Positions 17,178-40,793 of a DNA stretch of 64,000 nucleotides are shown piece by piece; position 1 is the stretch's first letter, and every line of letters begins with the position of its first letter. Source of the DNA: Saccharibacillus brassicae. Its GTDB lineage: Bacteria > Bacillota > Bacilli > Paenibacillales > Paenibacillaceae. The notes under the pieces were generated by a model, which saw nothing but the letters and a program-made list of their open reading frames with translations, had not been told where the DNA came from and did not search any database. The position numbers and the translations under genes were made by a program. The DNA lies in the NCBI RefSeq assembly GCF_006542275.1, contig NZ_CP041217.1:3536501-3600500 (forward strand), given 5' to 3'.

Positions 17178-18758
17178 ATGCCGCATCTGTTCAATAAAAC
17201 GTTCTACGAGAAAATCTTCTACGTGATCCTGATTGCATTCTTCGCCTTGTTCTTCGGCGCTTCGTTCTTCGTGCGGGCCGTCTACAACTTCGCCGCTTAC
17301 GGCGACAATCCGGTCCTGCAGCCGCAGCAGCCGCTTGGGCTGCTCGGGCTGCTGCTTGCGTTGGCCGCGCTGGCCGTGCTGCTGCACCGGGCGTTCCGGG
17401 GCCTCAACCGGCTGCGGCCGCGGGCGGTTGTCCCGGCGGTGCTGGCTGGGTCGTTCATCGTGCAGCTGGGCTTGATCCTGCTGCTGCCGCGGCTGCCGAC
17501 AGACGATTCCCGAACGGTGCTCTCGCTTGCGCTTGGCATGCTGGACCGCGGCGATTATTCGACGTTCGAGCCGGGCGGTTATTTGCACATGTTTCCGTTC
17601 AACTTCCCGATCGTCTGGTATCTCAAGACGCTGCTGGCGCTGCTGCCGGACAGCTATGTGACGATCAAGCTGTTCAATATTCTGTTCTCGCTGCTGACGA
17701 CGCTGATGGTCCACCTGATCTATCGGGAGCTGTCCGGCCGGCCGCGGGAAAATGATTATACGGCGCTGCTGTCGGCGGCCTGCTACGTGCCGGCGCTGCT
17801 CATGCCGAACCTGATCTACAACGACGTGATCGGAACGGCGCTGCTGACGTCGGCGATCTACACCGTGCTTCGCTTCGTGCGTACCCGGCATTTTGGGTAT
17901 ATCGCCGCGGCGTCGGCCCTGCTTGCGCTCGGCAACGCTTTTCGCAGCATCGGCGCGATCGTGCTGATCGCCGCGACCTTGTACGTGCTGCTGCATCTGC
18001 GCCGCCTCGGCGTGCGCCGCGGCCTGCTTGCGCTGATCGTGCTCGCGGGGCTGTTCCCGGTGCCGGGCTGGACGCAAAACGCCGCGCTGCAAGCAGGCGG
18101 CGTAACGGATGCGGCGTCGCTCAAGCAGGCCGCCCCGGTCTATATGTGGCTGAACATGGGCATCGATGCGGAGCGCTTCGGCTTTTGGGACAACGGTAAA
18201 AGCTATCTCATCTATGAGCATGACGCGGACTTCGACGGGCAGGCCAGCGTCGCGCTGTACAAAGCTTCGATCGCCGACAAGCTGTCGCAGGCGTCGCCGG
18301 GCGAACTGCTGCGCATGTATGCCAAAAAGCTGATCTGGGTCTGGACCGAAGGCACGTACCAGATCGACCGCTACGGCATCGGCAATGAATCGTCGTCGCC
18401 GCGCCCCGGCGCGTCTTCCATCGCCGGAAGCTATGCGTACGACACATGGCTGACCCGGCTGTTCCAGGGCGATTCGCCGGCGCGTTCCGGCCTGCTTGCG
18501 CTCGTCCACGCTTCGACGATCCTGATGTACCTGCTGTCCGCCGTGCGGCTCGCGACCGGCATTCGCGCCCGGCGCTTCGGAGAAGTGCTGCCCGTACTCG
18601 TGCTGCTCGGATTTATCGCTTTCTATCTGCTGTGGGAGATCAAATCCCGGTATCTGTATCCGGTCTACCCGCTGCTGCTCGTCTTGTCGGCGCTCGGCTT
18701 CCGGGACACGCTCTCTTTGGCGGGCAGCTGGCGATTGTTCAATTCGAAGAAGAATTGA
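17178..18758 (+). CDS. GT39-type (PMT_2) membrane glycosyltransferase
   Basis: A 526-aa polytopic membrane protein with about eleven hydrophobic helices. ATG 17178 follows AAGGAG; the upstream open frame lacks a signal. The long first helix (about 10-35) and the early acidic loop LPRLPTDDSRT are typical of dolichyl- or undecaprenyl-phosphate-sugar mannosyltransferases, in which an acidic pair in the first external loop is catalytic. A large external domain follows around residues 310-430. It would transfer a sugar from a lipid carrier to a protein or glycan on the outer face. The acceptor is unknown. Its end overlaps the convergent DUF4003 gene by 20 bases. Confidence 0.82.
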   Translation: MPHLFNKTFYEKIFYVILIAFFALFFGASFFVRAVYNFAAYGDNPVLQPQQPLGLLGLLLALAALAVLLHRAFRGLNRLRPRAVVPAVLAGSFIVQLGLILLLPRLPTDDSRTVLSLALGMLDRGDYSTFEPGGYLHMFPFNFPIVWYLKTLLALLPDSYVTIKLFNILFSLLTTLMVHLIYRELSGRPRENDYTALLSAACYVPALLMPNLIYNDVIGTALLTSAIYTVLRFVRTRHFGYIAAASALLALGNAFRSIGAIVLIAATLYVLLHLRRLGVRRGLLALIVLAGLFPVPGWTQNAALQAGGVTDAASLKQAAPVYMWLNMGIDAERFGFWDNGKSYLIYEHDADFDGQASVALYKASIADKLSQASPGELLRMYAKKLIWVWTEGTYQIDRYGIGNESSSPRPGASSIAGSYAYDTWLTRLFQGDSPARSGLLALVHASTILMYLLSAVRLATGIRARRFGEVLPVLVLLGFIAFYLLWEIKSRYLYPVYPLLLVLSALGFRDTLSLAGSWRLFNSKKN

Positions 18759-19725
18759 CGACGGTGATCGCGGTCAGGCTGGCCAGCATCGTGGCCTGCT
18801 GGGCCGCGATCAGGTTCGTCAGCACGGCGGCAAGCGTCGGCGACGACAGCTGCCGCGCCGCTTCGTTCACGCTGCGCGAGATGACGACGGCGGAAGACAG
18901 CAGCAGCCGCTCCTGTTCCTGCACATGCCAGCCGCCGAAGCCTTTCTGTTCGCGCAGATAGGCATCGGCCTGCTCGATCGCGTCGGCAATCAGGCGCACT
19001 TCCGTCGGCAGCAGCGCCAGCAGACCGAGCGAAGGCAGCGTGTACGTCTTGTCCATGCGCAGCTTGCGCTCCCGAAGCGTGCTCCGCAGCTCGGCCAGGC
19101 GGTCCAGCGCCGCGGCATCGGCATCGCCGAGCACGAGCACCTGGCTCAGCGCCTGGAGGCTGTTGGTGGCGTGATAATCCGGCTTCAGCTGGGCATAGAT
19201 CTGCTCCATGCGTACAAGCGCAGGCTCGGGCTCAAGCTCCGACAAGCCGAGCATGACGGCGAAAATGTAATCGTCGTGCGAAGTGAGGTAGGGATGGTTC
19301 TTTTTCATGCCGTCGTAGAAAAACAGGGCGCGCCGGACGATCTCCGTCCGCCGTCCGGGCTGCGCGCCGCCGGCGAGTTCGTACGCGGCGACGACCAGAT
19401 AGTCGGACGGCTTGAACGAATAGGCTTTCATCTCTTCGTAGGCGCCGAGCGTGTCGCTCAGCGCTCCAGGCGGATCGCCGTTCAGCGACAGCATCGCCGA
19501 GAGGCCGAATGACAGGCTGCCCCGGAACATCGACAGCGCGCCGGTACTCTGCTTGATCGACTCGTGACAGGTCCGGATCGAAGAGAGATCGGCTTCCCTG
19601 TCTTCGACCGCATACAGCAGGGCGGCCAGGCGCATGAGGCTTGCGTGCTGCCAAGGGAATTCCTTCTTGATCGAGTGCGTGTTCGACACTAGGAGTTGAA
19701 GACGATTCAGGTCCGTCGGATTCAT
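18739..19725 (-). CDS. DUF4003 family protein
   Basis: A 328-aa cytoplasmic protein, mostly helical. I start at ATG 19725 (MNPTDLNRLQ) behind GAGGTG; 42 further upstream codons have no RBS. The body matches DUF4003, seen in Bacillus and Paenibacillus: helices with FRGSLSFGLSAML, FKPSDYLVVAAYELA, and FYDGMKKNHPYLTSHDD. No catalytic residues are known for this family. The C-terminus carries a hydrophobic helix (LAAVLTNLIAAQQATMLASL). It converges on and overlaps the glycosyltransferase gene. Function unknown. Confidence 0.75.
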   Translation of the reverse strand: MNPTDLNRLQLLVSNTHSIKKEFPWQHASLMRLAALLYAVEDREADLSSIRTCHESIKQSTGALSMFRGSLSFGLSAMLSLNGDPPGALSDTLGAYEEMKAYSFKPSDYLVVAAYELAGGAQPGRRTEIVRRALFFYDGMKKNHPYLTSHDDYIFAVMLGLSELEPEPALVRMEQIYAQLKPDYHATNSLQALSQVLVLGDADAAALDRLAELRSTLRERKLRMDKTYTLPSLGLLALLPTEVRLIADAIEQADAYLREQKGFGGWHVQEQERLLLSSAVVISRSVNEAARQLSSPTLAAVLTNLIAAQQATMLASLTAITVVNSSSN

Positions 19726-25652: not shown

Positions 25653-25695
25653 AAAAAGGGTCGCTTCCTCATGAACAGGAAACGATCCTTTTTTT
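25653..25695. terminator. Bidirectional terminator
   Basis: AAAAGGgTCGcTTCCT pairs with AGGAAaCGAtCCTTTT around CATGAAC. It serves the lipoprotein from the left, and the A-run allows it to serve the minus-strand gene from the right. Confidence 0.8.
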
Positions 25696-27247
25696 ATAAC
25701 CAATCCATCATCTTCTCAAGGTCCGCGACATCCAAGTCCCTCGGCTTGATCCCAACAAATTTCTTGAAGGCTTGTTCGAATGGTTCGACTCCGTTGATCA
25801 AGCCGACTGCCGTATTCATAATCCGGTGCGAGCCGTAGGAGAGAAACTCGCGGGTGGCCGCGCCGAACAGCTTGCCTTCGTCATTGGCTTTGTTCAGTTT
25901 GTGAGTCCATTTGTATAAATTCAGGAAAATTTCTTCGGAATCAGGCAAAGGATCGTCGAACATCGCTGTAATCGACTCCGGATTCCATACGTCTTGAATC
26001 TCTTCCGAATACAGGTCTCGCAGCAGCATGAGCGGAATGAGACGGCGTTTCAATACGGTCAACTCTTCTTCGTCACCGTCTTCGATTTCCTGAGTCACGT
26101 CGAGCGCTTTGTCTCCGAAATACAGGCCGGCCTCATGTAACCGATCCCGGAGGTAAGGGCGCAGAGCGAATTCCGCGGTCAAAAGAATGATCATATACAG
26201 CGCGGGCCGATCTTCCTTGACCGTCTCCGGTTCGAGAAAATTCATCTTATAATCGCTGTATTCGACGCCGATCAGTTCCGCCGCTTCGTCAAAGTTAAAC
26301 GGTACGTCCTGCACAAGATTACGTAGCAGCAACCGCCGCAGGTTATGGCTTTTGACAAGGGTAAATAAGGAGGCGATCTTCACGATGGCGGCCCATTTGC
26401 GCTTGTCCAAGGCCGGATCGAAATCTTCGTCGTCTTCGTGATCGTCGGAGCGGGTGGCGGCATGCGAGATATACGCCGCGGCGAACTCCAGATAGTAGGT
26501 ACTCCATTTGCTCTCGTACAGCTCCAGGTCGCGCGCGGTCTTCTGGCCGTTCGCAAGATCGTGGAGCACGCTTCGGAAATAGGCGTGCTGCTCGCGCAGC
26601 CGCTCCCGGCGATTTTCTTTGGCGATATCGTTAGGATGAGGACGCAGCAGCAAGTCTTGACGAACGAAACGTTCGAAGAAGCGGTAACCGGAGCCGTGAC
26701 GTCGGCCGATCTCGCTCCATTTCCAACGCAGTTTGGCATCCCGTTCCGGCGTTGACAGTCCTGCATCAAATTCTAACGGCAGCGATTCCGCACAGAGGCG
26801 ATTGACCGCGTCTTCTTTTTGTCGATCGCTCAGCTCAGAAGAAGAAGGAAACGCGCCGGCCCCGATCCCTTGGTCGTTTAGATACAAAATGGAATTTTCG
26901 AATGATCCCAACCAGGCTCGAGGGTCCATAAACATCATCTCTTCGAGCAGGTCGCCAATCTCGTACCCGAATAAGGTATGGTCGGCGTATTGGGTCATCA
27001 GGTCGATCTCGCGTACGGTGAAATGAGACTGTTCTTCGTAAAGCTGACGCAGCGCATGAATCTTGACTTCCTGCTCGATCAACTCCGTATCCAATCCCAG
27101 ATAGAAGCAAGCATCCCGCAGGGGCTGCCCGGTATCGACCGCCTTCAGAATCGCCTTCAGGCTCCATTCTTTATAAATTTCCATAAAATCAAATTGAAAA
27201 TCGCAAGTATCTACCATGAACTTATGTAAAGCACGGCTTCTTCCCAT
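25694..27247 (-). CDS. Unrecognised 517-aa protein
   Basis: I do not recognise this protein. ATG 27247 (MGRSRALHKF) lies behind AAAGGGG; the 16 codons upstream lack an RBS. It is soluble, mostly helical, rich in Asp, Glu, Arg and Leu, with an acidic patch SDDHEDDEDFD near the middle and another at DVTQEIEDGDEEEL. No signal peptide, membrane helix, P-loop or HTH is evident. It is divergent from an XRE regulator and lies at the left edge of a region of accessory genes. It may belong to the same acquired block. Confidence 0.6.
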   Translation of the reverse strand: MGRSRALHKFMVDTCDFQFDFMEIYKEWSLKAILKAVDTGQPLRDACFYLGLDTELIEQEVKIHALRQLYEEQSHFTVREIDLMTQYADHTLFGYEIGDLLEEMMFMDPRAWLGSFENSILYLNDQGIGAGAFPSSSELSDRQKEDAVNRLCAESLPLEFDAGLSTPERDAKLRWKWSEIGRRHGSGYRFFERFVRQDLLLRPHPNDIAKENRRERLREQHAYFRSVLHDLANGQKTARDLELYESKWSTYYLEFAAAYISHAATRSDDHEDDEDFDPALDKRKWAAIVKIASLFTLVKSHNLRRLLLRNLVQDVPFNFDEAAELIGVEYSDYKMNFLEPETVKEDRPALYMIILLTAEFALRPYLRDRLHEAGLYFGDKALDVTQEIEDGDEEELTVLKRRLIPLMLLRDLYSEEIQDVWNPESITAMFDDPLPDSEEIFLNLYKWTHKLNKANDEGKLFGAATREFLSYGSHRIMNTAVGLINGVEPFEQAFKKFVGIKPRDLDVADLEKMMDWL

Positions 27248-27492
27248 TGCAGTAAGGCCCCTTTGCGTAAATGATAGGAATGCTAATATGAACAAAATGT
27301 GTCAACTGTAACGCCAATGCAAGTTTCTCTTCCTGTAAATGTGTCTTTTTTGTGTCCGTAAAGCGCAGTGAATGAATTTTTTGCGCATCAATTCACTTTT
27401 TTTATGCGAAATAGCCTTCTTGCCAAATACCTGTCTATTTCTCAAGAACCCCAAAACCCCGATGCTAAACTTGACTTAAGCCAGAAAGGAGC

Positions 27493-27969
27493 GTGAATAG
27501 TGACGATCGTCACGGTGAGCAGAGGATTTCGTCCGTGGGTAAAATTTCCTTCTTATTCTATGATGAGGAAAGACACAAAGTAAAGTGGGCGGTGAGGGGG
27601 ATTAGGGGTTCGAAAGACATACGATTGGGAGCGAAAATCCGCAAACTCAGAAAGAACTTGAACATGACTCAAGAGCAACTAGCCGAAAAGGCGGAGATCG
27701 ACACTTCGTATCTGGGACAGATCGAGCGAGGAGTCCGACAGTCGCCGAGTATTGCAATCGTCGGGAAAATCTCTAGAGCATTGGGGATCGGCGAAGGCGA
27801 GCTGCTGGCCGATCGCGAAGAAGATGCCTCATATGAGACGCATGCCGATGAAGAGATCGGAATCCCGGAACGAATTGCAAGGGAGTTAGGCCGAATGACT
27901 CCGAAAGAACAGAGGCTCTACGAACGGATTTTTCGGACGCTGCGCGAGTTATCGGAGCTGAAGGATTAA
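27493..27969 (+). CDS. XRE-family transcriptional regulator
   Basis: A small DNA-binding protein. The HTH is clear: LGAKIRKLRKNLNMTQEQL, then AEKAEIDTSYLGQIERG, then LGIGEGELL. The C-terminal 45 residues are charged and helical and could mediate dimers. The start is doubtful. GTG 27493 has AAAGGAG only two bases before it, and a perfect palindrome lies just inside the frame. GTG 27535 or GTG 27592 would leave that palindrome in the leader. It may regulate itself and the divergent 517-aa gene or the secreted protein that follows. Confidence 0.8.
   Translation: MNSDDRHGEQRISSVGKISFLFYDEERHKVKWAVRGIRGSKDIRLGAKIRKLRKNLNMTQEQLAEKAEIDTSYLGQIERGVRQSPSIAIVGKISRALGIGEGELLADREEDASYETHADEEIGIPERIARELGRMTPKEQRLYERIFRTLRELSELKD
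27500..27513. promoter_or_regulatory. Perfect 14-bp palindrome, candidate operator
   Basis: GTGACGATCGTCAC is exactly self-complementary, in the leader or first codons of the XRE gene, as expected for an autoregulatory site. Confidence 0.45.
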
Positions 27970-31014: not shown

Positions 31015-31049
31015 ATAAAGCGGGAGTAATTACACTCTCGCTTTATATT
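31015..31049 (+). terminator. Intrinsic terminator before dynamin operon
   Basis: ATAAAGCG.GAGT pairs with ACTC.CGCTTTAT, followed by T-rich sequence. It isolates the next operon from its neighbours. Confidence 0.75.
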
Positions 31050-31197: not shown

Positions 31198-33513
31198 ATG
31201 CAAGACCAAATGACCAATTCAACAGAAAATGATTTTAAAAAAATTATCCAACAATTTGAAATTTTAGCTTGGGAAGATCCGGTGTTTCAGAGCTATTACC
31301 GAAAAAGAAGCTTGGAAATTTTAAGGAGTTTAGAAGAAAAAGAATTTAGAGTAACGGTAGTAGGAGAGTTTAGCGCAGGAAAATCGACTTTTCTAAATGC
31401 GTTGATAGGAAAAGATATCTTGCCGCATGCCCGTACAGAGACGACCGCTGCAATTACATACATTAGGAACGTAACGAAAGATCATGAATTACATAACCGA
31501 GTCGTTGTTCATTTTAAAGATACATCACCTCAGATTATCTTGAATTTGGAAGAGGACAACGATGCTCTGAAAAAGTACGGAACTGTACAATCGGATATTG
31601 AGGTGACTAAGAAAGTCTCACATGTGGAAGTATATGTCGAATTCAGATACACCCAAGAAAAAGTTGTCTTTATCGATACCCCCGGTTTAAACGGCACAGA
31701 AGAAGGTCACCACGATCTAACCATGCATGAAATCCAGCACGCCCATGCCAGTATATGTCTTTTCCACTTAAGAAGTTTAGCCCATAGCAATATGGAGTTG
31801 TTAAAAAACCTTCAAAGTGCTCAAAACTCATTTTTGTATGTTATTAACTTCATTGATGAACTAAGAGTATCTGAAGGAGATTACATTCAAGATAAAATCA
31901 CTTCTTTCCGAAATCAGCTACTTTCTCACGGCATAGGAGAAAGAAAACAGAATGATCTTGATGCGAAAGTGTTTGGAGTTTCTTCTTTGAAGGCTCTTGT
32001 TGCCAGAGACCATTCAATCCCTCGTCTTTATCACAATGATCAAAGAGATCTGAATTCAAACGAGAGAGAAAATCTTTTTAAGGAATCCGGGTTTTTTAAT
32101 TTTGAAAATTATTTATGGAATGAGATTATTTTAAAAGAAAAAAATAACATTTTTTATGCTTCTCTGGCTACTGCTTTCAAAAAGGTCTTGGAAGAAATGT
32201 TGCAAGAGTTAAATAAAATTAAAAATTTAAATAGATTCCAGCCGGACATCGATTCCAGTCAACAAATTGAAATGCGATTGGGCCGAATAAGAGAAGCGGC
32301 TTCGCAAAATAAAGATAGACTAAAGGATTACGTAAATTCACGACATGCGCAAATTTTAAAGATAACGAAAATAGAAATAAAAGAAGATATCGAAAATCTT
32401 TTGAGTGCAATTAAAATGGAAACGATGTCGATTACTTTTGAAGAACTGGAGAGGCTTTTAGAAACAAATACACAAAGTATACGTTTAAAAGAAAAGATAG
32501 ATGATTTATTTGATAAATATCACGATTGGTTAATTGAAGTTTTCGAAGAAGTCTATCAATCAGCAATCATGAAATCCAAAGCGTATATTCCATCTGTAGA
32601 AATTAACGATCAAAATAAGTTAATTATAGAAACTTTGAAATTCGAACATGTCAACTACGAATTTGAACAAAAGTTAAAAAAGACAGAAAGCAAAATTTCA
32701 AATTGGGAAGATCAAAAACTAAAAGTTGAAAACGAGACAGAATCTATTATTAAAGAATCGCAAAAAGTAAAAGTAAACATGGATTTTCGTAAGAAAACGC
32801 TGGTACTCGCTGAACAACAATATCAAAAAGCTAAGTTAGAACTTGGAGTCCAGCCTCCAATAACCTCTCGTACCGTAACGACAACACGAATCGTAGAACG
32901 GAGCAAGTGGAACCCCAAGCGTTGGCTGGGAAGTTCTACATATGAGGTGAGTTATGACACCCAAGTCGAAGATCGCTTCGCCTATAACGAATGGCAAAAG
33001 AAAAAAGACCACTTGGAAGAAAAATATCCGACGCAACGAAATGAGCTGACCCAAGAATTGCATGAACTGGAGTACCGTCAAAAACAGATTGCGAATCGAG
33101 CAGGTGCAAACCAAGATTCCATCCTTTTTTTTCAGCATAGGATCACTCAAGCCAAAGAAGCCTTGTCTAGAGAGCTAAATGAGTACGAGAATATTATGAA
33201 AAAAGCTAAATCGGAATTTTTGCGTTCTGAACAAAAGCGAATAAACTGGCAAATTGAGAATTTCTTATACACCGAAATTGAACCTAATCTTCAAGAGACC
33301 ATCAATAAAAACATCGAATATAACGCTAAAGAAATCCAGAAAAACGTACTGGATTTTTATGAGCGGAATCAAAGTGAAACGGAACGTGCTTTGGTTTTGG
33401 CATTGGAAACGAATAACGAAGAGGTCGCCCAAAATATCCATGTATACGATCATTTAATTGAGCAAGTAATAGGGCTGAAAAATAACCTTGAAGCATTAAG
33501 GATGGACAACTAG
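31198..33513 (+). CDS. Dynamin-like GTPase 1
   Basis: A 771-aa large GTPase of the bacterial dynamin family, which bends, fuses or repairs membranes. ATG 31198 follows GGAGGG. G1 is GEFSAGKS at 56-63, the switch threonines lie at RTETTA (80-85), G3 is DTPG at 160-163. G4 is NFID at 217-220, where the usual Lys is Phe, so guanine recognition may be altered. From about 330 it is almost all long coiled-coil, interrupted near 560-600 by a beta-rich insertion ending in WNPKRWLG, a possible membrane-touching tip. No membrane helix is evident. First gene of a six-gene AT-rich operon; gap to the next is 12 bases. Confidence 0.9.
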   Translation: MQDQMTNSTENDFKKIIQQFEILAWEDPVFQSYYRKRSLEILRSLEEKEFRVTVVGEFSAGKSTFLNALIGKDILPHARTETTAAITYIRNVTKDHELHNRVVVHFKDTSPQIILNLEEDNDALKKYGTVQSDIEVTKKVSHVEVYVEFRYTQEKVVFIDTPGLNGTEEGHHDLTMHEIQHAHASICLFHLRSLAHSNMELLKNLQSAQNSFLYVINFIDELRVSEGDYIQDKITSFRNQLLSHGIGERKQNDLDAKVFGVSSLKALVARDHSIPRLYHNDQRDLNSNERENLFKESGFFNFENYLWNEIILKEKNNIFYASLATAFKKVLEEMLQELNKIKNLNRFQPDIDSSQQIEMRLGRIREAASQNKDRLKDYVNSRHAQILKITKIEIKEDIENLLSAIKMETMSITFEELERLLETNTQSIRLKEKIDDLFDKYHDWLIEVFEEVYQSAIMKSKAYIPSVEINDQNKLIIETLKFEHVNYEFEQKLKKTESKISNWEDQKLKVENETESIIKESQKVKVNMDFRKKTLVLAEQQYQKAKLELGVQPPITSRTVTTTRIVERSKWNPKRWLGSSTYEVSYDTQVEDRFAYNEWQKKKDHLEEKYPTQRNELTQELHELEYRQKQIANRAGANQDSILFFQHRITQAKEALSRELNEYENIMKKAKSEFLRSEQKRINWQIENFLYTEIEPNLQETINKNIEYNAKEIQKNVLDFYERNQSETERALVLALETNNEEVAQNIHVYDHLIEQVIGLKNNLEALRMDN

Positions 33514-33525
33514 GAGGATCAGAAC

Positions 33526-35880
33526 ATGAACGTAGAATGGATCAAAGAACAGCATGAAGAACGAAAAAACAGCGTCCTCTCAATTCTGAACAAAGGCGAA
33601 GCATACTTTTTGAATGTTGCCAAACACCATGAGGCGCAATCCTTGGCATCTTTACGTAATCAGTTAGAGAATGAGCGATTTTCAATCGTGGTTGTGGGAG
33701 AATTTAGTGCAGGAAAATCAACCTTTTTGAATGCGCTGATGGGCGAAAAATACTTACCTTCTTTCACTAGCGAGACAACGGCCACCGTTAATTTCCTTCG
33801 TCACATTAGCGAACTTCCCAACTCGGCTCCTCAAGGTAGCGGTTCAGCGATTTATTATAAAGATCCAAACAAAAAAACGCTTTATTCCCAATCGGATATC
33901 GAAACCATTGAGAGATTCGTAAGTACCAAAAGCGATCTTAATGTAGTCAATGAAATTGAGCGGGTAGAATTGTTTTTGGATTCTAAATTTCTAGGAGATG
34001 GAGTCGTATTGATCGATAGCCCGGGGTTGAACGGCGTAGCGGAAGGACATAAAGAAATTACGGAGCATCAGATTGAACAATCTCATGCTTGCATCTTCAT
34101 GTTTTCTGCCGAACAACCGGGAAGAAAAACGGATTTCGAATTTTTAGCGCAGCTTAAAAGCAAGGTAGATACCATTATATTAGTCATTAACAAAATTGAC
34201 GTTATAAAAGCAAACGAACAATCCATTGAAGAAGTCATGGACAGTTTACGACAAAACTATCATCAATTTTTTCCGGAGCATACGATTCCCGAAATTTGGC
34301 CTATCGCAGCTTACCCGGCTCTGGTAGGAAGAAGTGCTAAAGAATTGAGTTATCTCGGACGGGAACATCATTCGGAAACGGAAAAAGTCCGGTATCTCGA
34401 TTCGTCGCGTATTGAAGCTTTCGAAGAGCGGTTATGGCGTTTCCTTGTGCAAGGGGAAAAAACCGCTCAACAGCTCAAAGCCCCGGCTGATCGTGTGAAT
34501 AAGCTATTGACTTTAAGATTAAAAGAAGTTCAGGAACTAAAAGCTGGGCTCGAAAATTCAGCCGACTCAGACGAAGTTTCGTTGGAGATCATTGCATTGG
34601 AAAAAGAGGTTGCCGACTTGGAACAATCGATTGCCGATAAAAAACAAAGTTTCTTTGATGAAATTAGCCGGATTATCAGAGAGACTTCTATTCGCTTGGA
34701 AAGCCGAACCCTTGAGATGAAACAGCGCCAATCCAAGGAAATTCAGACATGGACCGACTTAAACGAAGTTCAAGATGACGTGCAACAATTCAATAATAAG
34801 ATCATTAAACAATATATGCTTACGGCTCAAAAAGTTCACGACGAGTTCGTAGACGAATTCATTGAACTACTGCATGTTCAGTATAAAGATTACCGGCACG
34901 AAATTGAAGAAAGATTGAATGTGCTTCCGGACCGGAGCGGAATTTTTCAGTTGGAAACGCGATTAGACACTGATGCTTTCGATTTTAATTTCGGTATTGA
35001 AGAATACCGAACGAAAAAAGAAAATTATGAAGAGCAGCTGGAAGAATTAGAAAAACAAATGGTTGCATCAGAAGAAAATCGAATGACCATCATGGAGATA
35101 AATGAAGCTAGACAGGAACTTCAGGCTAAACTAGATAGTGTAAAAGATCGCGAAGAGACCTATAGATTGAATTTAGGTTTAAGACCTGGTGTTTCGCAAA
35201 CACAAGTAGAGTATACAGAATTTAAAAATCGCGGAGGTCTATTCGGGAAAATCGCAGATACCTTCAAAGGCAAGCAAGAAGTGACTCGGCATAAGTTAGT
35301 AACGGACGACTTTGAACAGAAGAACTACGACAAGCGGGTCGGAGATATGATGAACAAATATGCCGAAGAAGAAAAAGAATTAAGAACACAACTTAACGAA
35401 GTTCAAAAACCCGGTCAAAGCGAGGCCCAAGTCCGGGAGGCTGTAGCTCGCTTGCAGCGCATGTACGATAAAAAGCAAAAAGAACAAGAAAAGTTGGAAC
35501 GCGAATTTCAAAAAGAATTTCAGCGTAAAAATGGGTCGGCTTTACGTAAGGTGAAAAACCAGGTCGACGACATGATCGACCATATGGAAAAAGAAGTTAT
35601 CAATTTGCTGAAAAAGGAGCTGCGGAGTCAACGTAATCTGTTGTCTGATGTTGCGGTTGATATCATTCAAAGCAACATTCAGCAGTTGATTCGTAATAAA
35701 AAAGACCAACTTATGCTTCGCAAGCGGCAGCTTGACTCTTCGGTTAATGAAAAAGAAATTTTAATAACGGGTTGGAATATCGAAATCGCTACGGTAGAAG
35801 AACTGCTTATCGACTCGGCGAGCGTGCTTGCGGAGTTGTCACTCATCGATATTGATAAGATTTTTTCGGTAAATCGGTAA
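33526..35880 (+). CDS. Dynamin-like GTPase 2
   Basis: A 784-aa dynamin-like GTPase, the most canonical of the three. ATG 33526 follows AGGAGG. G1 is GEFSAGKS at 58-65, the switch I region is SETTATV, G3 is DSPG at 164-167 and G4 is NKID at 222-225. Long helical stalk with strong heptads from about 330. The stalk is interrupted around 555-600 by a short insertion with GGLFGKIADTFKG, which can form an amphipathic helix, at the place where GTPase 1 has its WNPKRWLG tip. It is related to GTPase 1 but clearly diverged. It would be expected to pair with its neighbours as a hetero-oligomer (inference). Confidence 0.92.
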   Translation: MNVEWIKEQHEERKNSVLSILNKGEAYFLNVAKHHEAQSLASLRNQLENERFSIVVVGEFSAGKSTFLNALMGEKYLPSFTSETTATVNFLRHISELPNSAPQGSGSAIYYKDPNKKTLYSQSDIETIERFVSTKSDLNVVNEIERVELFLDSKFLGDGVVLIDSPGLNGVAEGHKEITEHQIEQSHACIFMFSAEQPGRKTDFEFLAQLKSKVDTIILVINKIDVIKANEQSIEEVMDSLRQNYHQFFPEHTIPEIWPIAAYPALVGRSAKELSYLGREHHSETEKVRYLDSSRIEAFEERLWRFLVQGEKTAQQLKAPADRVNKLLTLRLKEVQELKAGLENSADSDEVSLEIIALEKEVADLEQSIADKKQSFFDEISRIIRETSIRLESRTLEMKQRQSKEIQTWTDLNEVQDDVQQFNNKIIKQYMLTAQKVHDEFVDEFIELLHVQYKDYRHEIEERLNVLPDRSGIFQLETRLDTDAFDFNFGIEEYRTKKENYEEQLEELEKQMVASEENRMTIMEINEARQELQAKLDSVKDREETYRLNLGLRPGVSQTQVEYTEFKNRGGLFGKIADTFKGKQEVTRHKLVTDDFEQKNYDKRVGDMMNKYAEEEKELRTQLNEVQKPGQSEAQVREAVARLQRMYDKKQKEQEKLEREFQKEFQRKNGSALRKVKNQVDDMIDHMEKEVINLLKKELRSQRNLLSDVAVDIIQSNIQQLIRNKKDQLMLRKRQLDSSVNEKEILITGWNIEIATVEELLIDSASVLAELSLIDIDKIFSVNR

Positions 35881-35907
35881 CATCCATATTAAAAGGAGAT
35901 GAAGCAG

Positions 35908-38280
35908 TTGAAGGGAATATTAGAAAAACACAAAGAAGTCGCTTCTTATTTGGATATTACGAGCGATATTCATTTTTTGAACCAATTGATCAAGCAAATA
36001 GAAAGTGAAACATTTTATATTCCGGTAATCGGTCAATACTCAGCAGGTAAAACCAGTTTTTTGAATGCTTTATTCAAAGTTGATTATTTGCCTACACGAG
36101 GAACGGAAACGACTTCTTTTGCCACTTTTATTGCATACGGAGAACATGATCATGCCTTAGTCGAATACAGAGATGGAAATATGAAAGAAATTACAATAGA
36201 AGAATTGTCTCTTTATCGACATGGAGAAAGCAACCCCGAATTGGTGAATATCAAAGCCTTACATTTAAAAATTAAAGATCCAATATTGAAAACAGGCGCG
36301 ATTTTTGTAGATACTCCAGGACTTAATACTCTCGCGCAACACCATGAAGAGACAACATTGAACGTCATTGCTCAAGCGAATTTCTTGATTTACGTAATGG
36401 GTAAATCGCTCACAGATTACGATCTCAAACTTTTTCGTCAGGTAGAGGAGAACGGGATCGACTTGATCCTTATCAGAACCAAGTTAGACGAAGTTAAAAG
36501 CTCGGAAGAGAATCTTGAAGAGCTTATTCTGCAAGAAAAAAAGAAAGTCCAGCAAGAATTAGGGGCTTCTCTTTGTTGGTTCGGGATAAGTACTTATCCT
36601 GAATGGTTGCAGCAACCATCTTGGAGCCGACGTCTGAACGAAATCGGTAATTACCTAAAATATGATGTGGCCGCAAAAATGGGACAGATTAAAGAAAGAT
36701 ATATTCAACATCAACTTACGTCTCTGACTTCTGAATGGGTAAAGCAACTCGAAGAAAAGAAAGCGACTGCTCAGGCCGCAACTCGTTTGGAAGAACAACA
36801 GATTCAAAAACAGATTAATTACCTAGAAGAGCAAGCCTTAAAGCAAGAGAGAACGATGCTGGAAAATTCGCGAGATATTCATAATCATTTAGTTACTTTC
36901 TCATCACAAGTAATTAGTAAGATTACGTATTTGAAAAACGAAGCTTCTGAAAGTTTTGAGAATAAAATGATGAGGCTGCCTGATCTGCATGCGATGCAAC
37001 AACAAGCTCAAACTCTTGCTACCAAGGAAATCGGGATTTACTTGAGCGAGGTGAAATCCATGTGCCAAGCATACTCGCATAAAATGATCGAAGAAGGATA
37101 CCGAAAAGCTGGAGTAGAACTTCATGAAATTTCAGAAGAGATCAACGATAGTTTGAATCTTGAATTTTGTCCGGAATTGGAGCTGCCCAGTCCCGAGCAG
37201 TTGGATCGTTCCGGTCAGCGTAAAGTAGAGGAGCTAACCGAGGCGCTGGAATCTTTGAATGAAGCCTTACATTACGATGAGTTGGAATTAAGCGAATTAA
37301 ATCAGAATAAAGAAAAATTGCGTTCGACTTTAAACAAATCTAAGCAAGCCGTTGTAGAGGTGAAGGGGGAACTTGAAAAGTTAGGTTCTTTTGATGCTCC
37401 GATGAAATGGATAGAAGGAGACAAAAAAGCATCTGAAACTATGAAAAAACTCGGCAGCGTATTAGATATGCTCACTGTGTTCATTCCTACTACAGCCCCT
37501 ATTAAATTAGCCGGTCAAGCCGGCAAAATAACAAAAACGATGCAAATAGCAGCGAAAGCTTCAGAGGTTGCCAAAACCGCTCAGACCCTAAACCAAGGCT
37601 TTGAAATTGTAGAAGAAATGATGCAACATAAAAAAAACCAAAAAGGAAGCCAAGTGCATCCGAAAAGTCCGGGACTTTCATTTGTTAATAAAGGAACTGC
37701 CCTTGATATAATCAAAAGTATTTCTTTGGAATACTGGTTTGAGAAAACAGGGAATCTTTTTGACACCCCTTCTTATTATGAGATTGATCGAGAAGCGCAT
37801 GAGTCGTATTCGAAGCAAAAAAAACGGTTGGAAGATCGTCAGCATGAGGCGATACATCAGCAAATGATCGCATTGCAATCTAATAGTTTAATCCATAATC
37901 AAGAATCGAAATTGAAAAGACGACAAGAAATTAATACGAAAACGCAAAAAGCTCTAGCCAGACAACTTGAAGCTGCCAGTGAACAGGCCAAGAAAGACGG
38001 ACGGATGAATTACAGCCTGCAGTTGAAGATATTGTTTGAGCAGGAAATTCAGCGTCTTAACCAGACATTGCTTCCCCAAATCGAAAAATTTTACAAAGAT
38101 CGTGCCAATATGATCGTATTGGAGGCTATGGCCGGAGTTCAGAAACGAATTGACGATCTCAAGAAAATGCTCAGTCAAACTTTGGTTGATAAAAACAAAG
38201 CTCACGAACAAATAGAGCAAAGTCTTGCACAGTGCAATGACTACTTGAACTGGATACGTAATCTTGAGGTCAAAGCGTGA
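35908..38280 (+). CDS. Dynamin-like GTPase 3
   Basis: A 790-aa dynamin-like GTPase. AAGGAG abuts ATG 35899, so TTG 35908, nine bases behind it, is the better start. G1 is GQYSAGKT at 42-49, G3 DTPG at 135-138, G4 TKLD at 191-194. It is the most diverged of the three. After coiled-coil from about 265 there is an apolar stretch (LGSVLDMLTVFIPTT and following, roughly residues 510-560), a good candidate for a membrane-inserting paddle. A second coiled-coil closes the protein, as in bacterial dynamins that fold back into a stalk. It overlaps the next gene by four bases (GTGA). Confidence 0.9.
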   Translation: MKGILEKHKEVASYLDITSDIHFLNQLIKQIESETFYIPVIGQYSAGKTSFLNALFKVDYLPTRGTETTSFATFIAYGEHDHALVEYRDGNMKEITIEELSLYRHGESNPELVNIKALHLKIKDPILKTGAIFVDTPGLNTLAQHHEETTLNVIAQANFLIYVMGKSLTDYDLKLFRQVEENGIDLILIRTKLDEVKSSEENLEELILQEKKKVQQELGASLCWFGISTYPEWLQQPSWSRRLNEIGNYLKYDVAAKMGQIKERYIQHQLTSLTSEWVKQLEEKKATAQAATRLEEQQIQKQINYLEEQALKQERTMLENSRDIHNHLVTFSSQVISKITYLKNEASESFENKMMRLPDLHAMQQQAQTLATKEIGIYLSEVKSMCQAYSHKMIEEGYRKAGVELHEISEEINDSLNLEFCPELELPSPEQLDRSGQRKVEELTEALESLNEALHYDELELSELNQNKEKLRSTLNKSKQAVVEVKGELEKLGSFDAPMKWIEGDKKASETMKKLGSVLDMLTVFIPTTAPIKLAGQAGKITKTMQIAAKASEVAKTAQTLNQGFEIVEEMMQHKKNQKGSQVHPKSPGLSFVNKGTALDIIKSISLEYWFEKTGNLFDTPSYYEIDREAHESYSKQKKRLEDRQHEAIHQQMIALQSNSLIHNQESKLKRRQEINTKTQKALARQLEAASEQAKKDGRMNYSLQLKILFEQEIQRLNQTLLPQIEKFYKDRANMIVLEAMAGVQKRIDDLKKMLSQTLVDKNKAHEQIEQSLAQCNDYLNWIRNLEVKA

Positions 38281-39497
38281 TTCAGTTGAAGCGAATATTA
38301 CAGACGTACACTCCAGTTATAATTGGCGGTATGTTGGATGCGTCAGAACGCTATGACTGGTTCAGAAACCTGATTCGAGTTGGATTCGGAAATGTGTCGA
38401 TGATTCAAGAAATTGAAAAAGATGAAGGAGATATTCCTCTGATTTTCTTTTCAGATAAGCAGCCGTCTTGCTGGATTGAAACAATCGAAGAAACCTGGTT
38501 ACCATGGACGGAGCCGCTTCAAGATCAAGCATCTATTCAGGCTAAATATTTCTCGGTATCAGACCGTGTGCTTCCTGACGGTTTTGTGTTCATTATGCTT
38601 CCTTCATTCAGGAAAAGTTCGTATGTTGACCTTTCGGAATCACGATTATTTCGTAGTAAGGATTGGAGAACGGAAGGATCACATTTACTTTGGATGGATA
38701 GTTTTCCTTTTGTTCAAGCGAGTTCGTTGAAGATTTTTGAAGATCTGAGCAGGCAGATGCGTCCTATTCGAAAAACGATCGGAATATTACAATCTTCGCG
38801 TCGTTATGCCTATTCAGATCTGGAAATGAAAGTCTCGCTCGAAGAACGATCGGCTGCGGAGTGGAAAAGGCAAGTCGTTTGCGACGAGCAGATTATAATC
38901 GGTTCTGAAGAATTCGACCATCGTTTTTTTGCCTCTTTTTTATATCTACGCCCTGATCGGCTTCTAAAAATTGAAGAAGAAGTTTACGAAGAAATCAATC
39001 AAAAACGTCGATTTTTCGAAAAGTATGTTCGAGAAGATTATTCGATAGTTTTAGGTGAAATGCAGCCTGATACCATCGCTCTTATTTTCGAGTATGAGAG
39101 TTGGAGACAAACGGCTCCAACCGATCTTGTAGAATATTGGAATCAAAGAACGTCCCGTCTGATAGTCCATGAATTGAACGAAAAGATTATGGAATTCATA
39201 GCGTTTAAGATAGATGGGACTGAGATATATTCTCTTAAATCTTATTTTCAGCCTTATATAGACGAAGTATGGAAGGCAGGTTTTTTATTGATTTCAAGTA
39301 GGCTTGGGAAAATAAACTTGTCTCCTTCACTGTCTCAATTCGATTTCATGCCTGCTATTAAGTCATTGAAAATTCGTTATATAGAGCAGCTTAATGAAAT
39401 CATTAAAGTTTCTATGTACAACGTCATACAAGATTCTATTCAAAATCATTACGATTTATGGAAAAGGGGGACAAAGAAAGATGCATATGAATGCTAA
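38277..39497 (+). CDS. Unrecognised 406-aa protein, possible pseudo-GTPase
   Basis: No known family. GTG 38277 overlaps the stop of GTPase 3. It has no P-loop. The order of strands recalls a dynamin G domain, though: DGFVFIMLPSF sits where G3 (VFIDTPGL) would be, then SHLLWMDSFPF, then TIGILQSSRRYAYSD where G4 would be. After residue 215 it is helical and ends in a Lys-rich tail. I suggest a degenerate GTPase that partners the active ones (inference only). It is soluble, without a signal peptide or membrane helix. It overlaps the next gene by 17 bases, so translation is coupled. Confidence 0.6.
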   Translation: MIQLKRILQTYTPVIIGGMLDASERYDWFRNLIRVGFGNVSMIQEIEKDEGDIPLIFFSDKQPSCWIETIEETWLPWTEPLQDQASIQAKYFSVSDRVLPDGFVFIMLPSFRKSSYVDLSESRLFRSKDWRTEGSHLLWMDSFPFVQASSLKIFEDLSRQMRPIRKTIGILQSSRRYAYSDLEMKVSLEERSAAEWKRQVVCDEQIIIGSEEFDHRFFASFLYLRPDRLLKIEEEVYEEINQKRRFFEKYVREDYSIVLGEMQPDTIALIFEYESWRQTAPTDLVEYWNQRTSRLIVHELNEKIMEFIAFKIDGTEIYSLKSYFQPYIDEVWKAGFLLISSRLGKINLSPSLSQFDFMPAIKSLKIRYIEQLNEIIKVSMYNVIQDSIQNHYDLWKRGTKKDAYEC

Positions 39498-40401
39498 ATG
39501 GATAACGAGTCTGGGCTGTTTTATTTTCACTTTTTCTTTACTATTTCCTTCTTATAAGGCTTATGAAGGTATAGGTTATGTAAGTATCGCTATCAGTTCA
39601 CTAATTATCGGTTTTTTGAGTTATACCATGATTGAAGGACTGCAAAAAAATCAGGCTGCCCGCCTTGCGAGGCATCAGCAGCTTGTTGTTTCGCTTCAAG
39701 AAGGGCAGGCGAAAAGGGACGTCCAATATGATCAGTTTCAAGATTTTTCCAGAAATATGCAACAAAATATTTTACAGACCATAGAAGGAATGAAAGAGTT
39801 CCAGAACAAATCGATTCAAGAATTATCCGAATTCAGTACAACGATAAACCAATTGACATTGGAACAACAAGAACAAACCAAGAAAATCTCGAAAAAATTG
39901 AGCGAGTTCACCTCTCGATTAACAGCTTTGTTTGAGGAGCGATTAAAAGAAGAATTTGCCGATTTGAAAGTAATCAAAACTGGAATCAATCATACTTTGG
40001 AAGAAATGAGAGCGGAGAATTACCGTAGTCAGAAAAGGCATGACGAACATTTCGAAGAGAACAAAATTATATTTAGTGGATTGGCCTCTAAGCTTGAAGG
40101 GCTATATCAAGAAGAACAACGTAATTCTCGACAGCATTGGTCTGAAATTAAAACAACAGTTCAGGATACTTTAGAAGATACTCAGAATTCCTTGGAGAAC
40201 GTTATGAAATCACAAAGGAAAGATTTGCGTTCTATAATGGAGGAAGTTGGCGAACACCAACAAAACATTTTGGAGGAAATTTTAAATCAAAGCAAAATAC
40301 AGGGCGATCATACGGAATTACTAAGAAAAGTGCAAGAAGAAATTTTGCTGATGAATCATGAAGATATGGAACTTATGTCTAAAGTGCTGGAGAGGATCTA
40401 A
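39481..40401 (+). CDS. Membrane-anchored coiled-coil protein
   Basis: A 306-aa protein. ATG 39481 has GGGGG about ten bases before. Two membrane helices lie at about 6-23 and 31-51, with a short external loop between. The remaining 250 residues face the cytoplasm and are an almost continuous coiled coil (Gln, Glu and Lys rich; e.g. LEEQQEQTKK-like heptads). It resembles membrane tethers or tip-less chemoreceptor-like rods. In this operon it is the only member with clear membrane helices, so it may anchor or recruit the GTPases (inference). No enzymatic motif. Confidence 0.72.
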   Translation: MHMNAKWITSLGCFIFTFSLLFPSYKAYEGIGYVSIAISSLIIGFLSYTMIEGLQKNQAARLARHQQLVVSLQEGQAKRDVQYDQFQDFSRNMQQNILQTIEGMKEFQNKSIQELSEFSTTINQLTLEQQEQTKKISKKLSEFTSRLTALFEERLKEEFADLKVIKTGINHTLEEMRAENYRSQKRHDEHFEENKIIFSGLASKLEGLYQEEQRNSRQHWSEIKTTVQDTLEDTQNSLENVMKSQRKDLRSIMEEVGEHQQNILEEILNQSKIQGDHTELLRKVQEEILLMNHEDMELMSKVLERI

Positions 40402-40402
40402 T

Positions 40403-40735
40403 ATGATGCTTTCTCAGATTTCGGAAGTCCATATTTATCGAGCGGCTCTTTTAAAAGTGATGTATGAGTACGTCAAAAGCTTGCACGATAAGCCGTCCAA
40501 TCGCTATAAATTGAGTCTGCTCCGCACAATAAAAAGCGAAGAATCGGTAAAAATTCAAGAAAATTTATATCTCTTTGATCAGATCACCGCAAGCATCTTA
40601 AGAAATGCTGGGAATGGAAATCTCAAAAGAGCTTTTCACTTTTTGGTTGTATTGAACTGGCTGACGCAGCAGACGCAAAAGCAGATCGATTCTATAGATT
40701 TTCTGGAAGTTCTCTTGGAACAAAAAAGAAATTAA
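40403..40735 (+). CDS. Small helical protein, last gene of dynamin operon
   Basis: A 110-aa soluble protein beginning one base after the previous stop (ATG 40403; ATG 40406 also possible; GAGAGG upstream). It is predicted all-helical (VHIYRAALLKVMYEYVKSL, then FHFLVVLNWLTQQTQKQID). No family recognised. Its tight coupling to the other five genes suggests a small accessory subunit. The operon ends at the hairpin just downstream. Confidence 0.6.
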   Translation: MMLSQISEVHIYRAALLKVMYEYVKSLHDKPSNRYKLSLLRTIKSEESVKIQENLYLFDQITASILRNAGNGNLKRAFHFLVVLNWLTQQTQKQIDSIDFLEVLLEQKRN

Positions 40736-40742
40736 GGCGCTT

Positions 40743-40793
40743 CATATAGCGAAGGCAGAGACTTTAGAATAAAGTCTCTGCCTTCGTTATATG
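40743..40793. terminator. Long bidirectional terminator, right edge of AT-rich island
   Basis: Two 23-base arms match at 22 positions: CATATAGCGAAGGCAGAGAC and onward, around AGAAT. It lies between the dynamin operon and the convergent GNAT gene, and marks the change back to GC-rich DNA. No strong T-run. Confidence 0.75.

Follow-up and report, generated by a model that had tools for sequence, protein, structure and literature searches.

A conserved six-gene unit of three dynamin-like GTPases and three partner proteins in Bacilli, a candidate membrane machine in defence

Introduction

What might a bacterium do with three different dynamin-like GTPases encoded in tandem? The question is raised by a stretch of 64,000 nucleotides from Saccharibacillus brassicae (contig NZ_CP041217.1, positions 3,536,501 to 3,600,500; this whole stretch is called the window below), a member of the Paenibacillaceae whose genome of 5.62 Mb is a single contig. 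In the list of open reading frames (ORFs) of the window, positions 31198-40735 are occupied by six tightly packed ORFs on the same strand, three for dynamin-like proteins (DLP1, DLP2 and DLP3) and three, genes 4 to 6, for products called here p4, p5 and p6. According to PMC6104087, bacterial dynamins occur mostly in pairs. A first-pass annotation of the DNA had regarded the six genes as one unit and their arrangement as unfamiliar, and the open-access literature (subscription papers and preprints lie outside this scope) yielded neither a published six-gene system nor an account of one with this composition. The comparisons presented below make it on balance probable that the unit is a dynamin-based membrane machine whose role is defence, distinct from Eleos.

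Conservation of the six-gene unit

All three GTPases match the Pfam family Dynamin_N (92 bits for DLP1, 96.6 for DLP2 and 72.1 for DLP3, against a gathering score of 27), which bears out the earlier description of three dynamin-like GTPases of 771, 784 and 790 amino acids, the last length being reproduced with a TTG start. When the last three genes were looked for beside dynamins elsewhere, they were found: the unit is present at 17 loci in Bacilli, these being the loci to which strong matches of gene 2 or gene 4 led, and can be divided into subtypes A (10 loci), B (five) and C (two). The six-gene content is complete at every one of the 17, the gene order of the window is kept at 10 (nine loci besides the window), the G1 and G3 motifs are intact in all 51 DLPs, and no internal stop occurs in the 102 proteins. 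Loci are numbered with L and genomes with G where they have to be told apart.

A gene 4 search found five of the 295 genomes of the window's family, the window's own included. The four other Paenibacillaceae loci, all of subtype A, have the six genes in the order of the window, with identities to it of 40-43%, 53-56%, 34-36%, 33-38%, 31-34% and 34-37% for genes 1 to 6, so that DLP2 is the best conserved protein of the unit. The same order is found on pFN9A, a plasmid of Lysinibacillus capsici FN9, where the annotation calls the first three products dynamin family proteins and the rest hypothetical proteins. Genes 4 to 6 of pFN9A have no BLASTP link at 1e-3 to those of the window; multiple alignment of gene 4 nevertheless reveals invariant positions common to both, and the motifs of gene 6 are similar in the two. 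Scanning genome contigs with the DLP2 G domain led to Pseudoneobacillus rhizosphaerae, Bacillus sp. FJAT-42315 and Planococcus sp. ISL-109, each with all six genes, and the tenth subtype A locus (L070) comes from genome G673.

Subtype B (L059, L060, L071, L072 and L073) was reached through weaker gene-2 matches. Its dynamins of 688-715, 737-763 and 754-804 amino acids are followed by proteins of 258-299 and 92-111 amino acids and then by a membrane protein of 287-336 amino acids with the look of a coiled coil; the content thus equals that of subtype A with the last two genes swapped. Subtype C (L100 and L101) has the order of B and a gene 4 product of 445-457 amino acids. In profile comparisons between A and B, gene 2 is related with an E-value of 1.5e-63 over 720 columns and gene 3 with 1e-39 over 728 columns. 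Gene 1 reaches 1.4e-31, but each gene 1 profile scores higher against the gene-2 profile of the other subtype. For gene 5 the probability of similarity is 93%, a type of score that coiled coils inflate.

A FastTree phylogeny, built on 45 G domains of the unit (15 of 17 loci) and six other dynamin G domains, placed A1 with B1, A2 with B2 and A3 with B3 (the C members under B), each on one branch with local supports of 0.93, 0.92 and 0.82, and the branching inside the three positional clades is broadly alike. Because each positional clade holds A, B and C members, the phylogeny indicates that the dynamin triad, in this order, predates the split into subtypes. The six groups together do not form one split in the G-domain tree, and a single origin of the three dynamin lineages is therefore not implied. 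The explanation that ordinary dynamins merely lie next to unrelated downstream genes is hardly credible: it is refuted by a gene content that is constant at 17 of 17 loci and by the matching of the three DLP clades.

Two loci of related genomes carry two additional genes (514 and about 435 amino acids) directly upstream of DLP1, perhaps in one transcription unit with it (L015:3979-6849 and L016:3657-6533); tblastn found neither in the 18 other loci compared.

Gene 4 as a probable dead dynamin

None of p4, p5 and p6 matches a Pfam or NCBIfam family above its curated cut-off, and the significant sequence matches of gene 4 are to its own counterparts only. A single p4 sequence gave no confirmed match against genome contigs; in the class sample the p4 profile recovered, besides the window, a single 20-bit fragment interrupted by a stop, which was discarded, and its best match among PDB sequences was apolipoprotein E at an E-value of 0.03.

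The structure of p4 was approached through prediction with AlphaFold2, using nine subtype A gene-4 sequences as input and leaving the dynamins out. The model (predicted local distance difference test score, pLDDT, 66.8; predicted template modelling score 0.44) has an alpha/beta domain followed by long helices, the helical C-terminal part being mostly at pLDDT 82-95. In a Foldseek search of the PDB with this model, all 17 chains (nine entries) at E-values of 0.001 or below belong to the dynamin superfamily. The best matches are Campylobacter DLP1/DLP2 (7e-9; 5oxf and 5owv) and Nostoc BDLP (2e-6), and mitofusin 2, MxA, dynamins and EHD4 are also among them.

The G1 and G3 motifs are absent from all 17 gene-4 proteins, for which reason p4 is called a degenerate rather than an active dynamin. 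The ten subtype A proteins have an invariant glycine (G18) and then an invariant E24-R25-Y26 in the region where a P-loop is expected, and by our reading of the register E-R-Y would stand in place of the P-loop G-K-S. Together, the predicted fold, which comes from subtype A sequences alone, and these motifs suggest that gene 4 probably encodes a dead fourth dynamin, a revision of the earlier view of a 406-amino-acid unknown.

Membrane segments of the unit

An N-terminal hydrophobic segment is present in p5 at all 17 loci, and two such segments at 14, as judged with a simple hydropathy threshold; gene 5 is the only gene of the unit with such a segment at every locus. Although its length ranges between loci from 188 to 1285 amino acids, its C-terminal end is conserved (LNxxDMxLL-like in A, SKxxxR...Q in B and C). 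We infer that p5 serves as the anchor of the dynamins and sets their position. The longest p5, of 1285 amino acids, is four times as long as that of the window (L022:15753-19610) and may have a role in reach or as a ruler.

A likeness of p5 to ZorA of the Zorya system was considered and rejected. Residues 85-287 match ZorA positions 334-532, which lie in the tail region only, at an E-value of about 0.01; no Pfam motor match of the MotA/ExbB type is found in the six genes, and p5 has two predicted membrane segments.

By hydropathy, no segment of this kind is found in DLP1, gene 4 or gene 6 at any of the 17 loci. DLP3 has a central hydrophobic segment at six, comprising all five subtype B loci (about residues 477-506) and L021 (520-536), while the other 11 DLP3 proteins are below the threshold there; this segment could be the position of a membrane-inserting paddle. 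The DLP2 of the window has a marginal segment at its end. The idea that gene 5 encodes the sole membrane protein of the unit has accordingly been softened.

Relation to known dynamin systems

Eleos is a tested defence system and a close point of comparison. Like the LeoABC genes, which lie on an island in enterotoxigenic Escherichia coli, the unit has dynamin-like GTPases in tandem, and the PADLOC models LeoA and LeoBC are the best, if weak, defence-library matches of DLP1 and DLP2. LeoABC comprises three ORFs, described in PMC4159319 as two dynamins, one of them split. The present unit differs in that three DLPs stand with three further genes at 17 of 17 loci; besides its three full dynamins it probably includes a fourth, dead one, together with a coiled coil in the membrane and a small protein. 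With the NCBIfam model for LeoA, DLP3 scores 16.9 bits against a cut-off of 325, and DLP1 and DLP2 are not listed. Membership in Eleos was rejected on composition, since the six genes do not make up the two-component set of LeoA and LeoBC.

Bacillus subtilis DynA is likewise a dynamin of Bacilli with a reported effect on phage lysis. It is described as delaying lysis after phage infection while replication is not stopped, and as stabilising membranes (PMC8844932). DynA, however, is one fused two-dynamin protein, and against its model (NF052648; cut-off 1600) the DLPs reach 58.7 (DLP1), 52.3 and 51.7 bits, which places them outside this family. The genome of the window has a separate DynA-like gene (C1:121.8-125.7 kb) for a protein of 1299 amino acids with two P-loops; with this host protein present, the operon would add to a DynA-type function.

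Campylobacter Cj-DLP1/DLP2 resembles the unit as a heterotypic dynamin complex and provides the best structural match of p4. There, the operon combines two dynamins with a putative beta-lactamase-like gene, and a membrane tether has been proposed (PMC6104087).

Another plasmid of the pFN9A strain, pFN9B (L013:5843-12791), also has three adjacent dynamin genes with a small downstream gene (93 amino acids). Its dynamins, of about 1000, 640 and 575 amino acids, fall outside the three positional clades in the tree, and the annotation has no adjacent p4- or p5-like gene. At about 2 kb from this operon is fexA, predicted to encode a florfenicol exporter.

The CrfC/RdcA-YjcZ(RdcB) type is represented at the same chromosomal site as the operon of the window, in a congener (L089), by an operon with one dynamin, a YjcZ protein and a patatin; from the YjcZ partner, we take this dynamin to be of the CrfC/RdcA type. 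A further dynamin-related pair of 450 and 777 amino acids is found in the unit-carrying genome of P. rhizosphaerae (L061:7506-11149; G656:C7), where the 777-amino-acid protein has no match to the P-loop pattern. Overall, the enzymes of the unit are of a known kind, but a set of probably four dynamins with a membrane partner of its own is not known to have been described.

Layout of the operon

The features of the operon and its borders are collected in Table 1. The overlaps of 4 and 17 bases and the gaps of 1-27 bases given in the first-pass annotation agree with the coordinates (gaps of 12, of 18, or 27 from the TTG, and of 1 base). The start of p5 is an in-frame start inside a longer ORF. 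For gene 3, AAAAGGAG abuts ATG 35899 but sits 9 bases before TTG 35908, and three of five homologues start at the alignment column of the TTG; because of this spacing and of the homologue starts, TTG 35908 appears the better start.

Table 1. Features of the six-gene operon and its borders in the window
Feature	Positions	Strand	Evidence
DLP1, dynamin-like GTPase, 771 amino acids	31198..33513	+	Dynamin_N 5.4e-26; G1 GEFSAGKS, G3 DTPG; counterparts at 17/17 loci; clade A1+B1 with C
DLP2, dynamin-like GTPase, 784 amino acids	33526..35880	+	Dynamin_N 2.2e-27; G1 GEFSAGKS, G3 DSPG; A2-B2 profile E 1.5e-63
DLP3, dynamin-like GTPase, 790 amino acids from TTG 35908 (793 from ATG 35899)	35908..38280	+	Dynamin_N 7.2e-20; G1 GQYSAGKT, G3 DTPG; A3-B3 profile E 1e-39
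p4 (gene 4), 406 amino acids, proposed catalytically dead dynamin (pseudo-GTPase)	38277..39497	+	AlphaFold2 and Foldseek; no G1/G3; conserved columns G18, E24-R25-Y26
p5 (gene 5), 306 amino acids, predicted membrane segments 8-24 and 30-46, probable coiled coil, conserved C-terminal end	39481..40401	+	alignment, hydropathy
p6 (gene 6), 110 amino acids, small, probably helical	40403..40735	+	alignments; GNxKRAxHF-like stretch conserved among close homologues
Hairpin then T-run, terminator-like, upstream of the operon	31015..31046	+	z -5.3
24-pair hairpin separating gene 6 from a convergent GNAT gene; possible two-way terminator	40743..40793	.	self-match; z -10.5
Flanking genes marking the variable site, outside the machine: 533-amino-acid protein (-), HTH_3 regulator (+)	25694..27969	.	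flank comparison

Terminators had been claimed on both sides. Hairpins are indeed found on both, with a T-run at the upstream one alone; the 24-pair hairpin 3' of gene 6 has none. A terminator consensus scan of the window gave 11 sites against a shuffle mean of 12.4, that is, no excess, so that the claim depends on the two flanking stems.

The G+C content of the operon is 38.2% against 58.7% in the remaining window, and the region is, as first described, of foreign composition, here at a variable site. Low G+C as a mark of acquisition everywhere was rejected, as 14 other measured copies are within 8 points of their own surroundings.

Genomic site and distribution

Only one of 16 genomes of the genus has the unit. 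At least a partial match to the right flank is found in 15 of the 16, the window's own included. Of the 14 congeners, four were compared, and in all four both outer flanks are colinear with the window while the intervening DNA differs. This DNA is about 1.5 kb long in L088. In L086 (5632-13347) and L087 it spans about 8 kb and encodes a pair of AAA+ ATPases, those of L086 matching PADLOC IetA models at 2e-20 and 2e-29; unknown genes are also present, and L086 has a radical-SAM activase-like gene. In L089 (9859-14414) the site holds a cassette of 36-37% G+C that encodes a dynamin (826 amino acids), a YjcZ-like protein (333 amino acids) and a patatin phospholipase (365 amino acids), the last a possible lipase effector of that dynamin operon. 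Thus, one variable site holds two different dynamin operons in this genus.

The 533-amino-acid protein encoded on the minus strand at 25694-27295 has no Pfam match and marks the variable site in several Paenibacillaceae genera. Its gene is within about 6 kb of the operon at all four other Paenibacillaceae subtype A loci (5/5 with the window), and tblastn found the helix-turn-helix gene near the operon at three of the four. Acquisition, which had been proposed from base composition, is likely for this genus in view of the single carrier among 16 genomes; the common 533-amino-acid neighbour is compatible with a hotspot as well as with an old location subject to frequent loss. Serine-recombinase-like ORFs were seen by eye beside L015 and L100. 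In L023, a HAD-like hydrolase gene (4581-5207) precedes the unit and a shorter similar ORF (18751-19191) follows it, as if an island had been inserted in or beside the gene.

The DLP2-profile search found seven of the 295 genomes of the window's family (five A, two C), three of 398 in the class sample (the window's own and two B), four of 151 in the family of G658 (two A, two B), two of 193 in the family of G656 (one A, one B) and, in the phylum sample, one of 239, the window's own; the family, class and phylum samples overlap and these counts are not additive. Among plasmids, the only long match was to pFN9A, over 79% of gene 2. A pattern scan of viral contigs with the DLP2 G-domain alignment gave no confirmed relative, and among phage records one had a weak, partial (27%) dynamin match.

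The unit could instead be an accessory trait with no part in defence, serving vesicles (as has been proposed for LeoABC), secretion or the remodelling of membranes in development. The vesicle-fraction cargo of leo mutants is reported to be about half of normal (PMC4159319), which speaks for such a role. The patchy distribution in the genus, the carriage on a plasmid and the defence genes near other loci would be unusual for a developmental function, and this explanation is considered quite improbable.

Defence genes near the unit

The neighbourhood was surveyed with 71 flanking genes from 15 loci against PADLOC models at E-values of 1e-10 or below; 48 families matched, and the findings given here for these loci are from 25 of the 48. 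BrxA is within 2 kb at L073, a type I restriction subunit and PDC-S02 adjoin the unit at L060, and PDC-S26 is near it at L059. PDC is presumably the PADLOC label for candidate systems. In a separate comparison, a pair of GajA (8e-226) and GajB (5e-216) genes was found 2.3 kb from L100; the first 46 model positions of GajA are unmatched, the ORF beginning at the edge of the stretch compared. Recognised defence genes are thus near four of the seven subtype B and C loci (L059, L060, L073 and L100), and the defence neighbourhood looked for in relatives was found at several of them. The survey also included cross-matches, namely a DinG-type helicase and an ABC ATPase.

Three genes for WYL-type regulators were found near subtype A loci, at L022 (confirmed) and at L023 and L070 (by the count of three and by sequence likeness). 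WYL proteins are generally linked with defence. For subtype A, the evidence for defence consists of the variable site, the plasmid copy and these three genes.

These neighbours bear on the explanation that the unit serves tolerance to envelope stress or antibiotics; it would repair membranes hit by bacteriocins, antibiotics or solvents, and its selection would be due to bacterial competition rather than to phage. This explanation is supported by the reported induction of IniA by drug treatment (PMC6715688) and by the lack of a recognised defence system beside subtype A among the families listed. Against it stand the Gabija, BREX and restriction genes in the neighbourhood of B and C loci and the make-up of the unit, in which the six genes include no drug transporter or two-component system. 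We regard this explanation as rather unlikely. Since DynA is reported to do both, the stress and phage readings would overlap.

Proposed mechanism and its weighing

In the defence machine that we favour, p5 would sit in the membrane, its coiled coil reaching into the cytoplasm and its conserved C-terminus recruiting p6 and the dynamins. DLP1, DLP2 and DLP3 would form one hetero-oligomer; within it p4, predicted not to bind GTP, would be a fixed regulatory or capping subunit, and DLP3 may supply a membrane-inserting tip. Damage or phage lysis activity would trigger GTP-driven assembly on the membrane, and the assembled dynamins may tether and seal it and delay phage release, as has been reported for B. 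subtilis DynA.

The same machine could have another outcome, the breaking of the membrane of the infected cell in abortive infection. The dynamins would then constrict or rupture the host membrane on phage sensing, and p4, p5 and p6 would act as safety locks. The presence of as many partners lacking enzymatic motifs as there are GTPases, three of each, suggests tight control, WYL regulators lie upstream at three loci, the congener's dynamin cassette at the same site has a patatin-type lipase as a plausible membrane-damaging effector, and IniA is reported to mediate membrane fission (PMC6715688). On the other side, no Pfam toxin or lipase domain is present in the six genes, the reported action of DynA is to stabilise membranes (PMC8844932) and a tether is what has been proposed for Cj-DLP1/2 (PMC6104087). 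Killing takes the smaller share of the defence reading and is by itself a rather unlikely outcome; sealing is considered about one and a half times as probable.

Several observations weigh against the proposal of a conserved defence machine with a dead fourth dynamin. The PADLOC scores for LeoA and LeoBC are weak and of partial coverage (76.3 and 74.3 bits for DLP2, 52.9 and 38.3 for DLP1, 20.9 for DLP3). In profile comparisons, no significant similarity links the gene 4 products of the three subtypes or the gene 6 products of A and B, so that their equivalence across subtypes is a matter of position and size. The p4 profile shows no significant match to the DLP profiles, the N-terminal half of the p4 model is uncertain, and its alignments with PDB chains have TM-scores (template modelling scores by query length) of at most 0.35 and large root-mean-square deviations, as would follow from differing hinge angles or from an imprecise model. 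A lower-quality model based on five sequences (pLDDT 48.5) yielded no match below 1e-3, though its six best were dynamins. As for the neighbours, L101 has two adjoining helicases with generic matches to several defence models, L071 and L072 have cross-matches only, and the 10 subtype A loci have no recognised defence system among the families listed, with WYL genes at three of the 10. The control, in which none of 40 further genes from the genome of the window matched PADLOC at 1e-10, speaks for the defence neighbours but is small, unmatched and drawn from one genome.

Implications

Bacterial dynamins have mostly been studied singly or as pairs, and this unit offers a natural system for asking why heterotypic sets exist. 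It bears also on the role of a catalytically dead dynamin and, through the transmembrane partner in the operon, on how dynamins are recruited to membranes. Tentatively, the unit may represent a new class of immune machine, in which four dynamins inherited together, three of them GTPases and one dead, would act on the membrane of the infected cell from a transmembrane coiled-coil scaffold of adjustable length. The antiviral dynamins of animals include Mx and GBP proteins, of which the proposed unit would be a multi-subunit counterpart. If it is a defence system, dynamin-based immunity would grow from two components to six.

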